In this document: positions 4,640 through 32,300 of the stretch, piece by piece
How the letters are laid out: every line of letters begins with the position of its first letter
Position numbering within the stretch: position 1 is the first letter of the stretch
Source of the DNA: Sistotremastrum niveocremeum HHB9708
Taxonomy: Eukaryota; Basidiomycota; Agaricomycetes; Sistotremastrales; Sistotremastraceae
NCBI GenBank assembly: GCA_001630475.1
Contig: KV419398.1
Location: forward strand, 905,825 to 969,824
Direction of reading: 5' to 3'
Length of the DNA: 64,000 nt
Translations under genes and position numbers: made by a program
The notes under the pieces: model-generated
What the model saw: only the letters and a program-made list of their open reading frames with translations
Told to the model about the DNA's origin: nothing
Database searches by the model: none

Positions 4640-5939
4640 TATAGTGGGAATGAAAGAGACACAGCGTCAGGCCATAGGAGCTGTCAAAATGTCAATTTTA
4701 CATTCCCCGAACCGAACATATATTTCCGGCTTCGGGATCGGAATCGGATGACGGGTACCCGGTGCCTTTCCGATTCATTGCTGCTTGGTTGTTTTTCAAG
4801 ACGAGTATTAATTGGAGCATACTGAGCGTTGGGCGGCGAGGAACGTGAGCCAGCTCAACGATGGCTGTCGATAAAGAAGTCGCATAACATCAAAGTTAAT
4901 ACCCGAGTCACATGAATAGATGCGCAAACACTTGAATTCGCTCGGAAGATTCAGATGTTCTGTACAAACACCGGGCTCCAAATATCACGTTGGTCTCAGC
5001 CATTCAACTCAGCTTCCCAAGACGTCTATTCCGTTGTTGTTACGCAAATCCCGAGTTTTACCTAACAGAATCCTGTTCTGAATGGGGAACCTGGGGAACT
5101 TATGGGGAAGATGTTTCATTAAACAAACCTAAGAAATTTCATCGGGACGACAGAACAGTACACGTGAATGAGACTGCCAGCGAGTCGCTCTTCCGTGATA
5201 CATATATCGCACGTTCAAAGTTCAACATCCAAAACCAGCCAGAACGAAGGCAAGAGAGCGGGATTCCGCCGCATCAGCAACTTTCAGGTGTCCCCGAAAT
5301 CATGGAGACTTTTCGGAACACCTTTCAGGACACTTCGAGCAAACATCTTGAAAAATATGAAAGAAAGTCGAGATTAGGAACACCGTGGGAATGGTACCTG
5401 AGCGGAAGCAAACGATCGGGTCTTGAGTCGCTTAGCGCCCGAGGCCGGCCGCGCCTCTCATGCTTATCCTCAAAATTGGCATAGCAAATCATAAACCTCG
5501 AATATTTTCCCCAACGGTCAGAAGAAGAGCGGGGCCTATAACTTCTTGTCTGGACTATCGAGAAGGCGCTATTTTCGTGAGTATTCGGAGAAACCGAGTG
5601 CCGTTGATTTGAGATCCGGGACGGCACCCTTTGCCTGGCTCAAAACGTCCAAGCTCGACGGGTCGAACTCCGTATTTTCGTGTCGAGGCAGGGTCCTTGA
5701 AAAGTAATAGAGGTAGTGTTTCGTAATAAGCACACATCTTTCGGCGGTGAACGCTCCAAAAGAGCTGTATATGTATATTGTGCGTGCGGAGGTATCGATC
5801 TTCTCACAACGAGGAAGGCGATTGGATGATAACCGGATCTCACAGCTTTCTCTTCTTCTCCATAAGGCTTGCAACGACCCTCGGTCCTCTTGGAGTGTTG
5901 GCAATCGAGGTATAAGACTCTTGAGAGCTGGATGCATCC
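4640..5939. other. 1.3-kb intergenic region
   Basis: The longest open frames (about 150-165 codons at 4990-5484 and 5569-6021) have no recognisable domain and no consistent splice structure. Part of the right half may be the decayed 5' end of the first TupA-like copy, whose signal-peptide exon I could not find. No repeat or RNA gene was recognised. Confidence 0.4.
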
Positions 5940-7121
5940 TAGGAGGGTTGTCAAGTTCGCCCAGCCTTTCGATGGAGATGTACCAGGCAAAAAACATGGT
6001 TTGAAGGTAGCGAAGGCTCATAGGATGGAGCCAAAGGCGGTGTATGATGGTGGCTATCCTCTCGCACGTGGAGTTCGTCTGCGTATAGCGGCGGGAGGAC
6101 CAGGAAATTCAGGACTTGTGGAGGCATTGTCTAATGCCTTTATCCAGTACATGGTCGAGAGTCAGAGCACGAAACCATTCAAGGTATTTAGTTCCAGTCG
6201 TTCCATGACGATGATAGGCGCCTAGACTCAGAGAGCTCCTAGATTGCGTGGTATCTCAGCGACACAATACGAAGCCTCGAGTACATCGAACATGGAATGG
6301 TCGACATTGCGATTACGCATAACAAAAGCGCAGAGGAAGACTCGCTATTTTACGGTCATGCTAAAAAGCGCATGTTCGCGTTCTGCGACAGGTTTCTGAT
6401 CGTCGGACCGACGTAAGTCAAATTCGTTTTGTGGGATACATGTAGATACTTACAGAGGTGGATAGAGAAGACCCGGCTGAATTACAGAAAAACGCCGACG
6501 ACGAGCACAGGATGCTCAGCAGACTGTGCCGTGTAGCCAAGTCGTTAAGCCCAAATCCAAAGGTACAGTTATCGAAATGGAGCTGGAACCAAACTCAACG
6601 TTGGCTATATAGCACTTACCAATACGCTTCGTTTCTCGAGGCGATGGATCCGCGACGCATATCCGAGAGTGTGCTCTCTTCTCGAGAATAGGCCAGGTCA
6701 GTTAAGTTGAATAAAACCTATGAAAAATATGCACTGAAAAAAACAGGCACCCTGGGCAGATATAAAATCTACCTGGTATCACACGGCCAGAAATCCAACC
6801 GCGCAATCATCACAAGCGACCCTCGCCCACGCAGCAAATTTATCGGCATACACGCTCACAGATTTAGGAACATACCTCTCAGCTCCGAAGAATATTCGAG
6901 ACAAGCTTCATGTGTTTCGGACAGGGAATGAAGATTCGGATGATTTGATGATGAACCCTTCGAGAATATTGATGAGCGCGAAAGTTCCTGGGGAGAATGC
7001 GGATTTAGTGGAACAGTTTATGGAGTGGATGGATGATGAGGATGAGGGTGGACAGAGTATTGTTAGTGATTTTGAGATCAATGGTCAACATTTGTATTCA
7101 ATAGCTCCTCCTGGGTATTAA
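5940..7121 (+). pseudogene. decayed TupA-like substrate-binding protein, array copy 1
   Basis: First of three tandem relatives of a bacterial-type periplasmic tungstate/molybdate-binding protein. Homology to copies 2 and 3 begins at AQPFDGDVPG (about 5957) and runs in order through RLRIAAGGPGNSGLVEALS, SLEYIEHGMVDIAITHN, FLIVGP, DPAELQ, AYTLTDLGTYLSAPK and the C-terminus ending LYSIAPPGY with a TAA at 7121. Introns sit where they do in the sister genes, but frames do not join: the third exon (from 6456) needs a one-base offset, and the exon ending near 6693 has a two-base shift before IGQ. No signal peptide or 5' exon is visible. The last 300 bases are still open, which suggests fairly recent decay, or a gene that uses different splice sites from those I see. 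Confidence 0.7.
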
Positions 7122-7570
7122 GAGTAAAGGTTATTGCATGTTGGAAAGCAAACATATCTGGCGAATCGTCTGCTTTGCTCAATGGAGTCTGATAGCGCTC
7201 TGCAGAGCGAAGATGAGCGATTCACCTTCATGGTACCAATTTTGGCTCCGAGGCTCGGGATTCTCGTAGCACCGCGAAATGATATTATCGAGAGAGTTTT
7301 GCGATATTTGGACAATGACACGAGTGTTTCCTGGTCTCTGCGTGGGGATGGTCGAAGTCGTCACGAAGTAGAATGCCCTGTGAACTCCATCAGTCGAATT
7401 AGGCAAGAATAGGTGGACAGCACGGAACGAAGGTACGTGCGCTACCGGCTTTAGCGCATCGTGGGAGCTTTGCTCGCAGGCGCCGCCGGTTCTTCTATCA
7501 ACGTCCATCAACTCAATTTCTCACTTTTGTTCAGTACGGTCTGATTCGGTTTGCTGTGGTGCCGAAGGAG

Positions 7571-7577
7571 TATAAAA
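7571..7577 (+). promoter_or_regulatory. TATA box of TupA-like copy 2
   Basis: A TATAAAA sits about 65 bp before the start codon at 7640, a usual distance for a fungal core promoter. Copy 3 has a weaker CATAAAAAGG about 50 bp before its start. Confidence 0.5.
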
Positions 7578-7639
7578 AACCATGTTCTTGCATCAATGCT
7601 GTCCCCATCTTGGCCCCCATCCAACCCCACCTCTTGATG

Positions 7640-8906
7640 ATGAAATATTCTCTCGCCTTTTCGCTGTTCCTGGCAACTGCGTCAGGTCTTAAAGTCCAAA
7701 GTCCATTTGACACTGAACAAGTCATACCAGAAGGCCTTGTATCACCACCTATAGGCGGCTGGAACGTTGTCGAACCCTTCAATGGCGACGTACCGGGATG
7801 CACTGCTGATGCCACCGTTATGGCTGCTGATGCATTAACCCCTCAGAAGACCTACAATGGTGGATACGCGGAGGCCACTGAGATTCGCCTGCGTATCGGA
7901 AATGGAGCTGCTGGACAATCAGGACTGATCGGGGCTCTGGCTGATGGATTCATCCAATGGATGGTCAAAGCCGACGTAGGCTTCAAGCCGTTCAAAGTAG
8001 GTTCCATCAGTCCTTCCCGAGTCTATGCTTATATTGAACCAGGTCGGCTGGGTTTTGAGCGACACGACTCAAAGCTTGGATTATCTGGAGCAAGGATTGG
8101 TTGACATCGCAATCACCTACAATGAGGCAGCCGAAAATCAATCCTTGGCTTCCGGAGCAGCCGTGGAAATTATTTATGGCTTCAGAGATCACTTCTTGCT
8201 CACAGGCCCTCCGTACGCTCTTTCGTCCTGCCCGTTATCGGGTTCTTCATAAAATAAATGCAGATCGAACCCTGCCCAATTGGCTATTGGAAAAGACGAT
8301 GTCTATACCATGTTCAATAAATTGAACAAATTTGGAAAATCGGCTACTCCGACGGTAAGATTGTTCATACGTCTAGCTTGAAATGAGTATTAAGTGACCG
8401 ACTCTTGCTCGATCCAGGACCCCCCAACGCGTTTCCTGTCGCGCTTTGACAAATCTGCTACCAATATCAAGGAAAATTCACTGTTCATAGCAATAGGACA
8501 GGTATATCCTCCCGCCTCGTCCGAGGAGACATACTGACCAAGGACTCTCAATCAGGTCCCATGGGCATACGCCTACTCAACCTGGTATCACCAATATCCC
8601 CGCTTTCCCCTACAGGCTTTGCAGGCGTCAGGGCAGCTCAACGAGTACACGCTCACTGATCGTGGAACCTTCCTCTCCTCGCCGAAATCTGTGCAAGATT
8701 CCGTCAAAATTTACATTGCGGGCACAGATGCCGCAAGCGACCCCTTGCTCAATCCTGCACGAGTCCTTCGTAGTGCAAAAGTTCCATCAGAGAATTACTG
8801 GATTGCCCTCAATTTCATGACTTTTGTGAAATCGGCAACCATGGGTCAGAAAATTATCCAGCAATATTCCGTCAATAATCAGACCTTGTATTCGCCGGCT
8901 CCGTGA
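7640..8906 (+). CDS. secreted TupA-like substrate-binding protein, array copy 2
   Basis: Five exons (7640-7996, 8043-8212, 8264-8354, 8418-8501, 8556-8906) join in phase to 350 residues. A signal peptide (MKYSLAFSLFLATASG) is followed by a type II periplasmic-binding fold. The order of motifs matches bacterial TupA: RLRIGNGAAGQSGLIGALAD in place of the TTTS anion loop region, then LEQGLVDIAITYNEAAENQS, FLLTGP, RFDKSATNIKE (bacterial S-R-G-D-D-S-G-T-H-x-K-E), WYHQYP, EYTLTDRGTFL and LLNPARV. In bacteria this protein delivers tungstate to an ABC importer. Here no permease or ATPase is nearby, and the protein should be secreted, so its role is unknown; scavenging or sensing an oxyanion is only a guess. 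I start at 7640 because copy 3 begins with the same MKYS; an ATG at 7637 directly precedes it. Confidence 0.85.
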
Positions 8907-9534
8907 AGGCATGGATTAAAGCATTCGAAATGTACTATCACGATTCCGTAAGTATTGTAGACAGAAAGGACATCTTTCGAGCCTTTGTCGATATTATTCA
9001 ATTCCGCTTTCGGCGTTGGTATGTCTGTGTTTGGCTCTGTTTGTAAATCCTCCTTCAATGTGCTCTGCCGGATTCGCGAACATGTTCGTCCTCGATGATG
9101 CGATGACAACACAGCTCCCGCAGTCCAGCTTCTAAGACACAGCCTTATCGTTATTTGATCTTCTACGTGCATTCTGCCTGCGTCGCGACGACTCTCAATG
9201 CCAAATGGATGTTGGCGGAACGTAGCCAATGCCGACTCGGAGGCTTTCCCTCGACCAAACGTACATCCAATTGCATTGCTTCATGCTGGCACCTGCGAGG
9301 AGCTCACAAGTTAAATGGGACCATCATGGACGGAGACCACGGAACCGAACTCTGTCCGGGGAAAATGGATCGGCAATAGCTTGTCGTGGGAACGATGAGG
9401 TCGAGTTGCCGCGTACTCTTCCTTTCTGGGTTTCGTTCTTGTTCGGGAGCAGATGAGGAGCCTGTCAAAAGAAACAGCATAAAAAGGCGAGATTTTGGAT
9501 CCATGGCGCCGCTGCCAGCTGACTTTCATCCACT
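8907..9534. other. spacer between TupA-like copies 2 and 3
   Basis: No gene seen. It holds the 3' flank of copy 2 and the promoter of copy 3, with a TATA-like CATAAAA at about 9479-9485. Confidence 0.5.
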
Positions 9535-10803
9535 ATGAAGTACTCTATCGTGTTCGCAGGCATCGTAGCCACCGCGTACGGTCTCGCAACTCAAAGCCAA
9601 TCCGCGTTTAATCCAGAACAACCTTTATTGGACCAGCTTGTCTCGCCGCCTGTGGATGGGTGGAATGTTGTGACGCCATTCGAAGGAGACGTTGCTGGCT
9701 TTTCGGGCGACTTCAATGTCATGGCTGCCGATGGTCTAGCTCCAGAAAAGAATTATACTGGCGGATTCACAAACGCTACTGAGATTCGCTTGCGTATTGG
9801 GAATGGCGGGGCAGGTCAATCAGGCCTGGTCGGTGCCCTGGCCGACGAGTTCATCAAATGGATGGTAAACAGCAACGTCGGCTGGAAGCCTTTCAAAGTA
9901 CGGTTGCATCTCTAAAGCATTTGAATAATATACTGAATTTGTGCTAGGTTGGATGGTATTTGGGCGACACGACCCAAAGCTTGGAATTCCTTGAGCAAGG
10001 GCTGATTGACATTGCGATCACGTATAATGAAGCAGCCGAGAACCAATCTCTTGCCTCTGGGGCTGCTGTGGAACGCGTGTACGGATTCAGAGATCACTTT
10101 ATGCTCACTGGACCCGAGTAGGTCTCAAAGATTCTGTAGCATTCCTTACTGATGCAACCGAATATAGCTCGAATCCGGCCCAACTGACCATTGGGAAGGA
10201 TGACGCCTATACTATGTTCAATAAATTGAACAAATTCGGAAAGGCCGCCAACCAGACTGTGAGCCACCATCCTCCCGTGTCACTCAGCGTGTTTTACTAA
10301 CTCGCTATGTCTTAGACCCCGCCTACGCGCTTCTTGTCTCGATTTGACAAATCTGCGACAAACATCAAGGAAAGCGCCCTATTCACAGCCATCGGCCAGG
10401 TACGGATGCTCCTCACATCGCAGAAATGTTTTGCCAATGCTTACTTGACTAGGTCCCCTGGGCGTACGCTTATTCGACTTGGTATCACCAATACCCTCGT
10501 TTCCCACAACAAGCTCTCCTTGCAGCAGGACAGCTGAACGAATATACTCTCACCGATCGCGGCACCTATCTTTCATCTCCTAAATCCGTTCAAGACTCCG
10601 TGAAAATTTATATCGCTAGCACGGACGCCGCCGACGATCCATTATTGAATCCTGCCCGCGCTCTTCGGGGTGCCAAAGTCCCTGATAATAATTTGTGGGT
10701 GGCGAAAAACTTCATGACGTTCATCGCATCCCCGGGACTGGGTCAGAAAGTCATCAGGGAATATTCCGTCAATAACCAGACGTTGTATACACCTGCTCCA
10801 TGA
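9535..10803 (+). CDS. secreted TupA-like substrate-binding protein, array copy 3
   Basis: Five exons (9535-9897, 9948-10117, 10168-10258, 10316-10399, 10453-10803) give 352 residues. The last four exons have exactly the lengths of those in copy 2 (170, 91, 84, 351 nt), which shows a fairly recent tandem duplication. The signal peptide is MKYSIVFAGIVATAYGLA. Motifs are RLRIGNGGAGQSGLVGALAD, FLEQGLIDIAITYNEAAEN, RFDKSATNIKESALF, EYTLTDRGTYLSSPKSV, LLNPARALRGAKVPDNN and a C-terminus VNNQTLYTPAP shared with copy 2. Several N-x-T/S sites suggest N-glycosylation of an extracellular protein. The fold is that of bacterial tungstate/molybdate-binding proteins; the ligand in this fungus is not known. 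Confidence 0.87.
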
Positions 10804-25021: not shown

Positions 25022-26319
25022 AATACCCTTAATATCGTTTACATGCATACTTTTAGTCCTTATATTACTTTTCAACCCCGTATTCGCTAGGGGCCATCTA
25101 AGTATATGCGGGTTTTGAAGTCTTTCGATAGTCATTGGGTCTGACGTGGACGCTCAGTACTCAGTGCTCAGCACTCGAATCATCTTCATTGCTAGCACGT
25201 TTCATGACTTGTTGTGGGTATCCATGACCATGGCAAATTCAAGAGCGGGTTAAGTTAAGACAAAGATAATCCAGTTCAATTATGGCTGCTGTACTTCGAA
25301 ACATTGCTTACGGTCTAACTAACTACTTACTAGGTACCTTAGAGAGGGACAATTGATGCTCTGCCTATAGGATAGTCAGCTTCGGCTTAGCCTTGGTTAT
25401 AGCGGAAGAGAATGGATCAGAAGGAAGGCAACGGAAAAATCCACATGGGGTTTTGCGCTCTCGGACAACAGAGCCTCGATGAGGTCTCATTTACATCCGT
25501 AATGATTGCATCAGGGAAAAAAGAAGACGTGGACAGGGATGAAATGACGAGACACTTACAGGAAAAGAGCTACGAGGCCAGCCGAGAGAGCGAGTGTGAA
25601 GAAGCCTAGAAAACTTCAAAGTAGGTTAGTAAGATGGCTTGCAAGACGAGATTCACAGTGAAAAAGAGAAAGCTTGGCTCAGCTACCGTTGTAGAAAGAA
25701 TGAATTCAGCACGAGTTATACGAGAAGTAACACTCGTTCGAACAGTGTGAATAAGATGTCATCACCGCCAGCATTTGAATAAAAAGGGTAATCAGAAACT
25801 TGAATAATACATACCAAGTGTTAGCGTGGACCATGCATCTAGTCAAAGAGTTGCTGGTGGAAGGCTTGAATGAGGTAGAAGAGAGGATGAAGAACGGAAG
25901 CGATGATGCGGAGAATTTATAGCGTGTGAGTTTGGCTTTGTTTGTGCCACACAGCACGTGGTCATAGTAACTTAGAAGTGAGGTGGGTCCAGATTCCCAA
26001 ACAACAATGACTAACGCAGTAGCATACGTAGAGTCCAGAATCTAGGGTAGGCTAACGATAATTGAATCGTCCAGCTATGATGAGAGAAACTAAGTAAAAG
26101 ACATGTCCGCATAGTTTGATACACATGATCATGCACTGCAATTATTATATGTATGCTCCAGAGAGTGATATGAATATGCCAGAGTCCAATCGGAAAAGAT
26201 AGCAAAACAAGTGAGCGGCAAAAGCAGTAGTAGTTAACTAGAGAGAGGAGTACTGTGATACTCCTATATGCAAAGTCCGATTAAAAAGAGAAAGAAAGTG
26301 TTCAGATGTCCGATATCAA
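25022..26319. other. 1.3-kb intergenic region between SURF6 and chitin synthase
   Basis: The two genes converge here, so both 3' UTRs lie inside. Frames such as 25412-25609 and 25706-25957 have no domain or splice support. A small perfect hairpin (AGGAGTA, 6-nt loop, TACTCCT) is at 26247-26266, 55 bp after the chitin synthase stop. Confidence 0.5.
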
Positions 26320-29300
26320 TTACTGATCGCCCAACAGGATTTTGTCAATGGCTGCATTGATAGAGAGCTTTCTGGACGATAGATCACAGCCGAACATGTC
26401 CTCTAGCCGCTGGCGAATTTCGCGTTTCGTGACCGTATCGAGGTTCACTTCCTGCAAGATGCTCTTGACAGCGTCCATAATTTCGGTGTCCGAGGGCAGA
26501 CCACTCGTACTCTGAGCACTGGGAATGCGGACGTCGAGGTAATTGGTGATGGGACGAGATGGCGCGTTTCCATACGGAACATGCGCAGAGGCAGGCCGAG
26601 CAGACAAAGCCGGCGAATTGCGTCCTGATTGGTAACCAGGCGGCGCAAATCCAGCCTGAGAGGGAATAGGGGAGAAGGTCCTGGATTGGCTTGCATCATA
26701 GAATGTCTCGCGGCCATACACGGAAGCGGTATGAGCATCGTAGTCCATGAATTCCTTTTGAGGTGGCACCCATGATCCAATTGAGTGATTGGATTCTTTG
26801 TCCCAAAGCTCGTTTTCCTAGCAGAGGATCAGTTTACAATGTCACGACCAAGCTCATGATGAAGCATACGTAGTCGTTCCAAGACTTGAGGGGAATAGAT
26901 CGTGGATCAAATTTGCCTTCGTCCTGAGAAAATAATCATGAGTAATGATCACCGGAAGCTCGAACAATACATACATGGACGATGAGCTTCTTGCCCTTTT
27001 CACCGAGTACGACACGCGTGGCACCCCACGAGAAATCGTCCATCTTCCAGAATGAATACAGGGGCAAGAAGAACGAGAAAGCCGGGATAGCAAGAATGTA
27101 AAAGACCATCCACCCGATCATGTCCCATTTCCTGCGGAAGATGAAGATGAGCGCTTGAAGACCATAGATTGCGCCCAGCATGATCAGTGAAAGTGTCGGG
27201 ATCGGTTGTTTCGCAGCTACAGTCAGGTAGATGAGGTAGACAATCTGACATAAGATCAGAATCTCGACTGACGCAACAAAGAATGAACACGTACGTAAGC
27301 CACAGAGACGGGTTGGACGAGGGTTGATAACAAGTCGATGAAGACGATGAACCGCATCGAGAAACAACAGAAACCGCACAATCTCTCGAGGAAGACAAGT
27401 TCTCCAAGGTTGTGGATTGTAGAGTTAATCCATCGACGACGTTGAGACAACAAAATCTTCCATTCATCAGGAGCCACCGTGTAAGCATGCGCATCGCGCA
27501 CGAACTGCGTCTTATATGCTGGGAAATGCTTCAGGAGAAGAGTAGTCAGATAACGATCTTCACCGAGATGCAGCAAGTTCTTCATGTGCAGTGTGTCAAC
27601 GCGATTTTCCGAGTAATCTTGGATCACTTGATTAGAAATGAAGAGCGGCTTGTGCGTATCAGGCGTCCGCAGCCGATACATGGTGAAACAACCTGGCAAA
27701 CAAGTTACGGATCCGAACAAGCTTTCGAAGGCCTTGGCAAGGTGATGGGAGATAAAGTACTCGTACACCTGATGTACTCATCAGAGGTGTCTTGATCATG
27801 AAATAGAGCGACTCACCTGCATCATGGTAATGATTGACTGCTTGGCGTTCGCCAGCGAAGTTTCACCGCAAACACCAAGAACCTTCTTATCGTGCACCAT
27901 ACTACAGAGTGGTCAGATAGGAACCGCTCATCACACGAGCGCTGTGCTTACGCAGAGACCAGACGATTCAAAGACATTGTATCAACGGTAGTATCAGCAT
28001 CCACCATGAATATGTACTCATAGAACGAGGGGTTGACGCCGATAACATTCTTGATTTGATGATAGATCTCCAGTTCGAGAGGATTCATCGGCGAGTTGAA
28101 ATGAACCTATGACATCAAAGTTGGCCGTTCGTCAGCCAGATCGCGAGACAATATCAGCTAGCATACCTTGTTCAAGAAGTGCATCAGAACCATCTGAGAG
28201 TCACGCTTTCCACGATTCCCTGGACGCTGACGTTCCGTTGGCTTGCCCACTTTGACAAGGACCAAGTACGGCACAACGTGACCGGAACATTCATATAATC
28301 CAGAATAAACCTTGCCCATGTTGTGTTGCTTCGCACCTTCACCGAGTGAAAGGAAGCTTAGAGGCTCAGGATCGACGTTGGGGTCTGCGCCGAGAATGTC
28401 GAGAACAATGCGGGGTGTCGGGCGATCGTTACCGGATCCGACGATCATACCGTCACACACGATGAATAACAGTTTACGTTTGTCATCATAGCGCAATTTA
28501 GCCAAGGAGTCAATCGTCTTCCTCAGGGACTCTTCGCCTTCAGTGTAACAAGGAACCTGGCAGACAATGAATTTGTCGTGATCTTCGGGAGCCCTCGGAG
28601 CGCCAAATTGTAAGGCAGCCAAGAACTTGAAGCCAATCACGGACACCATCACGATGGACAATACGAGTAGGATGTACTTCGAGAACAAACACTGAGGGGA
28701 TTGCCGATTGTCCTGTTTGCCAATGGTGAAAAGGTTGCGAAGACAGATCTTCTGACGAATCAAGGTGTCCTTGTTGATGTTGAGGTTATCAATAAGTTTG
28801 GTGACGTCCTTTCCGGAGTTGAGCTTGAAGACCTCGACAACTTCAGGAGCCATGAATTGCGCATTGATGCCATCCGGTGGTGATTGTCCTGGTGGAGCAC
28901 GCACAGCAGGTCCTGTGTTGATATACGTGGTCAAGTCGTAGACGAGACCATCGTATACACCAACTGCCAGACCTGCGCTGGCCATGTCGCGAAGGGTAGA
29001 TGGAGTGTATCCCATGAAGCCAACTCGATAATGATAACGAAGAATGACCATGTTCTCCCAGTACCAATCCGGTCGGGGATCTGTAGTAGACACACGGAAG
29101 TCATGGTATTGCGCGTTCACGTCGGTGGTGTTTGTAGCATCCAAGACGATGTAGGGACTCAAATTACCGTCCGTACCATCACAAAGCGCGCTGACCTGTG
29201 GCGGATAAACACGCTGCACTTCGTTGAGATATCAAATTCTTACCTGTACAGGGAAAATGTCGGTGGCGTCTAGGCCGCCATACTTGAGGACCGATTTCTT

Positions 29301-32300
29301 TGGAACCACGTTGACGATGGTGGAGTGCGTATTTGCAAAATTGGAAAGGTCGAACACCTCACCACGAATGGCGGTGTAAATGTGGTTGGGATCGCCTTGA
29401 GACGAGTGCGATGCCAATTCGTCAGTTCCGAAGACGAATTCACGGGGACAGATGACGTTTCCGAGGACGGCGATCACGAATACCGCGCACCCACAGATGA
29501 ACCAGATGACCATGTTGATGGCCAGTTTTTCTCTCCAGGCCTGTCGAACATCCAAGCGTTTCATGCGACCGAACCATGACAAGAAGGGATTGGGTAACCA
29601 GAAAGTGAGGAACCACACAAGAACCAGCCATCTACGACGAGTAGAGGTATCTCTAATCTCCTCGGTGACCTCGCCTTCTTGAATTTCACCGGGAAGAGCA
29701 TCCTTCTCGCCCAAGGCTTTCTTGTCTGCATTCTGGAACATATTTCGAGAAGGTGCGTACGACTCCGATCCAAAGTTCGACCCCGTGTCATCGCGGTGGC
29801 TAGTATACCGGCTGACGCCATCAAAGTCTTCGCTGTGCACAGAACCTCGTTCGCCTTGCTCCTCGTACATGTCCGCGCGCATGAAAGGCGCAGCGTTTGC
29901 GACGAGAGGTAGCTGCTGGCTCGAGAGGTTGAAGGCATCGCCGTAACCTGCGGCAGGGGAATGGGCCTCAGAAGCTGGTGTGCTGTAAGGGGCGTAAGGG
30001 TCCATAGCAGGACGTTCAACCAACCCCGCTTCTGCCTCTGCGTCGCGGAGTCGATTACGCTTCTGCTCTTCGACGTCCGTTGCTCGCAAATGATCTTCGA
30101 GCTTATGGAACGCAAGATGACTCAAGAAGACCTGGTGCGAAATAAGCAAAACTGTGATATGTCGAACCTAGATAACTAACCTTATATTGCCCCTGAACTA
30201 GATCCCACTCTTGAAGACCCAACGACTGTCTGGCTTGGATGACTCTCTCGATATCCTCCCCGTCTTCGACTCCAAGAAGAGCGAGCTGATCCCTATATCT
30301 CTCGCAGAATTCTGAGGGCGTCATGCTGACTTCAAATACTGTGCGGTTCCTCCTGGCGATCTCGCTGAGCCCAATGCTTCGTATCTGTGCCTTCACACCT
30401 CTGCCTTCCAGCTGATTGGGAAGTTGAGAGTCATTGGGGTTGAGACAGAATACAAACCAAGGCTGAGTCTCGTCGAAAGTCTGGAAGAGAATTTCGAGGG
30501 CCGCACGGAACTCTCCAGCCTTACAAGCAATGCCGCTCTTAGCCTCATTTGCACCATCTTCGTCGTCGTCTTTGTCATCGTCACCAAGACCGACCTTGCG
30601 TCGAACGGTGCCTTTGCGCCGAGTCGAAGGTGCTCGCATGGGTTTAACGGGTTGCTGAGCAGCAACGATGGTATCCTCATTACGAGGATGCGCTTGTGTC
30701 GCAATGGCCTTACTTGAGAAGAGACCCCGTACGAAAGGATTAATTGAACCGGTCATTTCCGACCCCGACGGGATGTTGGCAGGTGCATCGGGAGTGGGAC
30801 CACGAAGGAGTGACACGAAGTCAGGATTCAAGGCAGCAAGATTCTTCTCCAAGAAATCTTCTGCGGAATACGTCACGCCGCCCGTATAGTGATTAACGGT
30901 AAAGGACGGGAACCCTGAACGATCCATATTCCCAATCTTGAAGCTAGAGTGATTGCCCCATCTTTTCCCAAATGCTTCGACCATGGTATGCTCGGTCTTC
31001 TTTGGCATCTTTCGTGCTTGATCGTCCATGATGTGAATGAGACCACCTGGACGATTTTCAAGCAATCTGACACATTCCGAATTGTCGAAATAGGGAACCT
31101 GAGGAACATAGTTGGATATGCCCTCGGCGCTGTATTCTTCGACGTGGCTTTCGAAAAGGCTTTTCTGTATCCAGTTCTGCAGTTTCTCGTTGGCGTAGTT
31201 GACACAGAACTGGTCAAGAGAGTTGGAGCGACTCGAGGAGGATGGGATATTCTGAGGACCCGGGAGATCCAACAGGCCAATCATGGAGGAGAAATCATCG
31301 CGATGGAGGCGTTGGTTGATGTTCTCGTTGACCCATGAGAACAAGAGGGAATAAAGGGTTTGGGCGAGAGCGTCCCTGTTTTCTGCCGCACCCTCTGGAT
31401 CGAGGAAGACAGTGCATAATTCCTTCTTCACCAACTTGGTCTTGTAAGAGAATACTGCCTCTAAGGCGGAAGGTTGTACGCCTAAGAAATCGGCGACGAT
31501 ATCGAGGACATCAACGTTTTTTACAACAGCTGCGTCGAGATTTCGATGACGATCAATGGTAAATTCGAGGTTGCCAAGGTGAAGAATCGCGGCAATTAAT
31601 TGGCACATTTGAGCGACAGAGCGTTTCGACAAGCCCACGCTCTTCATGGCCATTTTTAATTGCTCGAAACGCAATCCATCATCCTCTCCGCCATTTCGAG
31701 GGATCGCACGCTGCCCCAGATAGCGGAAGGCCTGTTTATCATGGAGATGGAGATGCTGTCTTTCTTCCGTAGACGCGCCGGCAATGAGATAATAGAATAT
31801 GTGAAAGTTGCGCTCTCCGGACGGGGCACCCGTAACGCGGGAACGTTCCAGGTAGTATTCAAGAGTCTTGACTCCACTAACTCGCCCACGATCCGTGAAT
31901 TGCAGCTCTGTGTATTTTCCGAAGCGAGAAGCATTCGGGTTGGAAAGGGTTCGTGCATTGCCAAACGCCTCGAGGACGAACTCGGCGGATGGGATTTGAT
32001 TGGAGAGCTTGGATCCCTTTTTGCCAGGATTTGACACGCTGAGTTCCAGCAGGGATTTGATGATGAGGCGTCGACTCTCTGATTTGCCGCTACCACTCTC
32101 ACCACTGTCGGAGAAACCATGAACAAGAACTTCACAATGTAGATCTATAAATAGCGCACCTGATGAGAATGCCCTGATCCTGGCCCGTCCGTCTCATATG
32201 ATAGTACGCATTGTTGGCCAGCTGGAAGACATGGGGAGGCAGGTAAGTTTTCTCCTCGGCAGTATCGCGATATTCGGCTGCATATTTGACCATGACGGCG

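Follow-up and report, generated by a model that had tools for sequence, protein, structure and literature searches.

What does a protein built like TupA, the tungstate-binding component of a bacterial ATP-binding cassette (ABC) importer, do in a fungus? The question is raised by three genes on the forward strand of a 64,000-nucleotide stretch of DNA from Sistotremastrum niveocremeum HHB9708 (the window, which is positions 905825-969824 of contig C5, KV419398.1, in a genome of 34.7 Mb and 111 contigs), and by two further copies outside it. The explanation favoured here, to which we give about an even chance, is that they represent an old family of two-lobed proteins, with the periplasmic-binding-protein fold, which would shut around a small anion, function with no ABC importer and have a preference other than that of TupA. 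The genes are as follows.

Copy 1, window 5932-7121, forward strand: exons 5932-6183, 6243-6412, 6466-6562, 6613-6696 and 6747-7121; 325 residues
Copy 2, window 7637-8906, forward strand: exons 7637-7996, 8043-8212, 8264-8354, 8418-8501 and 8556-8906; 351 residues
Copy 3, window 9535-10803, forward strand: exons 9535-9897, 9948-10117, 10168-10258, 10316-10399 and 10453-10803; 352 residues
Copies 4 and 5, contig C5 872989-874181 and 878898-880082, reverse strand: outside the window

Together the first three occupy window positions 5932-10803, and the arrangement which an initial annotation, made from the letters alone, had described for 5940-10803 (three head-to-tail genes with common intron positions) is confirmed. 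That annotation counted two intact genes, of 350 and 352 residues. Copies 2 and 3 do encode proteins of nearly those lengths, but copy 1 also splices to an open frame, with zero internal stops, so that three genes look intact, not two. Copies 4 and 5 are on the opposite strand, upstream of copy 1 by ~32-39 kb. Four intron positions are common to all five copies, exon 2 being 170 nucleotides (nt) and exon 4 84 nt in each, and in every copy removal of the GT-AG introns (46-63 nt long in copies 2 and 3) leaves an open reading frame. The gene models were built from GT-AG junctions and homology, and for copies 1, 4 and 5 the 5′ ends, and with them the N-termini, are not certain. In protein searches of the whole genome, the 22 matches to copy 3 and the 20 to copy 1 all fell inside these five genes, though divergent exons might escape detection.

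That the proteins are built like TupA, with its motif blocks in the same order, had been proposed at the outset; the quoted blocks are present in the sequence and the homology is borne out. Copy 3 matches the four TupA structures in the PDB (5my5, E 3.1e-10; 3lr1, 4.3e-10; 3muq, 3.9e-8; 3kn3, 0.0021). With a profile of the five copies the values are 1.9e-17, 2.3e-15, 2.8e-13 and 1.6e-9, the homology spanning both lobes from the anion loop onward, and beyond these and the entry 3cvg (below) the profile gave eight chance-level matches to other proteins (E 0.14-0.92). Against the Pfam family PBP_like_2 (PF12849), for which the curated cut-off is 27 bits, four of the five copies score above it (copies 1, 2, 4 and 5 with 55.6, 48.9, 29.1 and 46.5 bits). 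For copy 3 no Pfam match is listed, despite its 76% identity to copy 2, so that Pfam domain annotation of the family is evidently patchy. The NCBIfam TupA model NF041772, with which copies 2 and 3 were scanned, gives 41 and 46 bits respectively where the cut-off is 400. Since the matches to TupA structures are significant and the TupA cut-off is missed by far, the five proteins are judged, on sequence comparison, to be homologous to TupA, yet not TupA by the curated standard.

The strongest structural match is to 3cvg (E 3.6e-88 with copy 3, 2.2e-108 with the profile), titled ‘Putative metal binding protein’. It is from another organism, probably the fungus Coccidioides immitis, and belongs to the same subfamily: its chain residues 2-283, the part covered by the comparison, align with residues 68-352 of copy 3 and have in common with the array the LRIGNGGAGQSGL loop, SDTT, FRDHFML, SRYDKSATNIKE and the absence of GQGM. 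Neither a paper on 3cvg nor a ligand for it was found in the literature. The loop, DT and the absence of GQGM recur in all five copies, SR.DKSATN in copies 2-5, and copy 1 has SRGDGSATH. TupA, in contrast, has a TTTS loop and the GQGM motif; the five fungal copies are without both and their loop is one residue shorter. VupA, the cyanobacterial vanadate counterpart, is of the same fold family and has the lobe-B residues in common with the copies, but the VupA-like proteins in our comparison carry a TTS loop, a GSGM motif and adjoining ABC partners (the label ‘VupA’ for these two Nostoc rows is our own, from a vnfD gene near one of them). VupABC is described as most similar to TupABC in PMC4284476.

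What has become of the ligand pocket? In Desulfovibrio TupA the binding-site residues, as given in PMC5517513, are Thr9-11, Ser12, His59, Arg118, Thr124 and Asp170, and the aligned stretch of 5my5 matches the published H59-R118-T124-D170 spacing. The places were followed through an alignment of 22 rows, 13 of them TupA-type and nine fungal or ‘Nostoc orphan’, the orphans being three near-identical Nostoc proteins which are the only prokaryotic ones found with the fungal-type loop.

Window 7898-7924, forward strand: glycine loop GNGAAGQSG of copy 2, where TupA has its TTTS loop
Window 9799-9825, forward strand: glycine loop GNGGAGQSG of copy 3, where TupA has its TTTS loop
L023 5956-6840 (Nostoc sp. 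C052, plasmid pC052_C): Nostoc orphan
L025 3933-4817: Nostoc orphan
L026 3417-4301: Nostoc orphan

The lobe-B half is kept: residues at the R118, S122 and T124 places of TupA in all 22 rows, D170 in 21 (Halosolutus has Val), and all four in each of the five copies, where by copy 3 numbering they are R217, S221, T223 and D271. The lobe-A half is replaced. TTTS is present in none of the five copies; each of the nine fungal and orphan rows has the glycine loop there instead, aligned with a gap of one residue, while TTS is present in 11 of the 11 TupA/VupA rows that cover the stretch (those of 5my5 and 3lr1 do not). At position 59 eight of the nine have Tyr, and copy 1, which keeps a TupA-like SRGD..TH, has His; the TupA-type rows have His in 11 and Asn in the two VupA-like rows, an indication that variability is allowed at this residue. 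G[QSC]GM is lacking in 9/9 fungal and orphan rows as against 0/13 of the TupA-type, and DT stands where TupA has G[TS]G. The replacement of a TTTS-type anion loop by GNGxAGQSG, noted initially, is thus upheld by the alignment, and it is not peculiar to the array, being present also in 3cvg and the Nostoc orphans. To judge from these residues, a ligand changed relative to that of TupA is plausible.

The duplications are old. Copy 1 is the most divergent of the five, with 44-45% identity to the other four in pairwise alignments. The proportion of silent sites that differ (pS) is 0.74-0.81 across all ten copy pairs, which is at or near saturation, and a finite silent distance (dS) is obtained in two pairs only (3.0 and 3.4) and in none of the other eight. 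The proportion of differing amino-acid-changing sites (pN) is 0.14 for copies 2 and 3, 0.19 for copies 4 and 5 and 0.31-0.39 in the remaining eight pairs, pN/pS being, in the same order, 0.19, 0.25 and 0.39-0.52. Saturated silent sites beside conserved proteins mark old duplicates under constraint, and the proteins are under purifying selection.

As to where the proteins go, secretion had been claimed for the whole array. This holds in part: a hydrophobicity test shows signal-peptide-like starts on copies 2 and 3 (best 11-mer at the start 1.83 and 2.15) and on those only; copies 1, 4 and 5 give -0.05, -0.07 and 0.54, so that these three show no clear signal. A hidden upstream signal exon was sought for these three copies, and under strict splice rules there is none. 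Loose rules offer a candidate for copy 1 (hydrophobicity 1.71), a weaker one for copy 4 (1.36) and none for copy 5; as 18% of 600 random pieces reach 1.5, such candidates are not significant.

If the old-family explanation is right, lobe B would supply Arg, Ser, Thr and Asp to the anion as in TupA, given the conserved residues, and the glycine loop of lobe A would probably hold it via main-chain amides, in which case an oxyanion or small anionic compound would still be bound, with a preference unlike that of TupA. With no ABC importer, the bound form would have to be used in another way. For copies 2 and 3 this may happen extracellularly or in the cell wall, where they would capture or buffer the ligand on behalf of an importer of the fungus or a partner at its surface; copies 1, 4 and 5, which show no clear signal peptide, may do their binding inside the cell. 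Several points count against this. Kept pocket residues are no proof of binding, TupA relies on R118 as one part of a complete pocket, whose opposite half differs in the fungal proteins, and the uncertain N-termini of copies 1, 4 and 5 have to be reckoned with. N-glycosylation sequons do not exceed those in shuffles in any copy (copy 3 has five against a shuffle mean of 2.7, with 13% of shuffles reaching five; copy 2 has two against 2.3) and thus give no independent sign of secretion. Moreover, two Coprinopsis cinerea genes named ‘Extracellular tungstate binding’, CC1G_09458 and CC1G_15616, are SignalP negative in PMC4704728, where Table 3 has them down-regulated 4.1-fold with C. elegans, 4.9-fold with A. 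avenae and 6.2-fold with B. subtilis. This mushroom's genes are set beside the Sistotremastrum ones on account of their name, and they differ in having no signal peptide listed and in their down-regulation on challenge.

Distinctly less probable, though to be taken seriously, is that the fold has been turned into an intracellular enzyme or regulator, the signal-less copies being the original form. The model would be the fungal thiamine protein THI5/NMT1, which has a fold of the same kind. Three of the five copies are without a clear signal, the Nostoc orphans start without one on a reading of their N-termini, and the two Coprinopsis genes are likewise listed as SignalP N in PMC4704728. However, the proteins show no recognised catalytic motif, signal-like starts are present on copies 2 and 3, and an NMT1 family search of the genome, a weak negative as explained below, came back empty, so that the precedent itself is not seen in this genome.

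Could the proteins still be true tungstate or molybdate binders, which scavenge the metal extracellularly and supply it to a molybdate importer of the fungus? The claim that fungi are without the TupABC importer is consistent with Table 3 of PMC6147048, in which TupABC is reported for 0 of 176 molybdenum-using eukaryotes. Searches of the genome for the BPD_transp_1 family, and for MOT1 and NMT1, gave no match, but all three are weak negatives, since a PF12849 search of the same kind found none of the five genes that a protein search had all found, genes being matched exon by exon. The genome does have a use for molybdate, with six matches at three places to the molybdenum-cofactor-enzyme domain PF00174 and an MFS_5 match (E 7.3e-28), MFS_5 presumably being the family that contains MOT2. 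This, and the kept lobe-B anion residues, speak for metal scavenging. Set against them are the loss of TTTS and GQGM, and of His59 except in copy 1, the bit scores with NF041772 so far below its cut-off, the absence of a MOT1 match (weak, as said), and the absence of any molybdenum or oxyanion gene among 15 nearby or window open reading frames scanned, nine of which matched a family. On balance scavenging of this kind seems unlikely.

Where did such a family come from? A tree of 22 rows (299 of 451 columns), for whose bacterial side 11 of the 43 plasmid records matching copy 3 were fetched (one Nostoc orphan and ten TupA-type), sets the six fungal rows and three Nostoc orphans apart from 13 TupA/VupA rows with support 100/100. 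The orphan branch is very long (2.95 changes per column). The orphans are placed among the fungal rows, with weak support and with copy 1 outside, and no single branch of the best tree separates the fungal rows alone from all others; a tree constrained to group them is 5.3 log units worse but not rejected (p-AU 0.181). The hosts are Nostoc sp. C052, where the gene is on the conjugative plasmid pC052_C, Nostoc sp. FACHB-973 and Nostoc sp. NMS7. With the fungal rows the orphans have in common the loop, [GS]DT, DKSATN and the lack of GQGM; they differ in having ~28% identity to copy 5, no N-terminal PFDGDV segment and a single exon, and the C052 protein scores 24.2 bits with PBP_like_2, below the cut-off. 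AlphaFold2, run for an orphan on a two-row alignment, gave a mean pLDDT of 33.8, too poor for a fold search, and the model was left unused.

The surroundings of the orphan on the C052 plasmid hold no ABC component among 12 annotated features in 12.8 kb. An ABC permease gene adjoins the binding protein at seven of the ten TupA-type plasmid loci, the exceptions being Halosolutus, which has no permease gene, Indioceanicola, which has only an iron permease and further binding proteins, and Nonomuraea, where the stretch is unannotated. The changed loop therefore accompanies importer loss also in the one annotated bacterial case. A pattern scan of genome contigs gave 146 matches, of which two encode a relative, both in Nostoc; among 386 cyanobacterial genomes there was one match at E <=1e-15, in the Nostoc genome on which the search centred; and the C052 orphan as plasmid query returned itself only. 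Phage records gave no match, and four scans of viral contigs, three protein-based and one by pattern, were likewise empty. Apart from the Nostoc orphans, no candidate bacterial donor carrying these motifs came to light, the profile search not having been extended to other phyla. The proposed old gain from bacteria is neither shown nor excluded, the three orphans, distant as they are, being the nearest prokaryotic relatives found.

The presence of the fungal-type glycine loop in the orphans makes a transfer between fungi and symbiotic cyanobacteria possible. A bolder proposal is that the family forms an anion receptor system of its own, with half a tungstate pocket, a new glycine loop, outside (signal-bearing) and inside (signal-less) members encoded in one cluster and no ABC importer, and that one of its genes was exchanged between fungi and Nostoc strains that carry plasmids and live in symbiosis with plants, perhaps with the fungus as donor and the cyanobacterium as recipient; to this we assign a small chance.

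A secreted anion sink, which would withhold a scarce oxyanion from competing microbes, is more doubtful still: it would suit the secretion-type start on copies 2 and 3 and the expansion to five copies, but the tungstate-named genes of Coprinopsis, if they belong to the same subfamily, count against it, for in PMC4704728 they go down on challenge, not up. That the copies are functionless, decaying relics of a bacterial transfer can be dismissed as very improbable, for although no partner gene was found and the family is known only patchily, each of the five splices through GT-AG introns to an open frame, and pN/pS stays at 0.19-0.52 with pS saturated.

The genes in the window and around it are of fungal kinds, among them a biotin-protein ligase, a ubiquitin-conjugating enzyme and a CAP59-type mannosyltransferase. 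Other features seen in the window and upstream of it are given here.

Window 28161-32193, reverse strand: matches to chitin synthase, cytochrome-b5-like and myosin-head families, as in a myosin-motor chitin synthase
Window 25409-25523, reverse strand: C/D-box small nucleolar RNA snoZ13_snr52, 65.6 bits
Contig C5 886797-887927, 889006-890130 and 891189-892328 (L014-L015), on the upstream side of the window: a tandem of three similar open reading frames of ~375-380 residues with ...GKP[IL]EHLA...; the one scanned (L015 1206-2330) matched no Pfam family

Fungal relatives of the array are already on record, namely the 3cvg structure and the named genes of Coprinopsis, and a functional study of fungal proteins named for tungstate binding was not found in the literature. 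With lobe B kept and lobe A replaced, the tungstate name is probably wrong, or at least unproven, for this 3cvg-type subfamily. Should a ligand be found, it would show how a binding protein made to serve an ABC importer can function by itself in a eukaryote.

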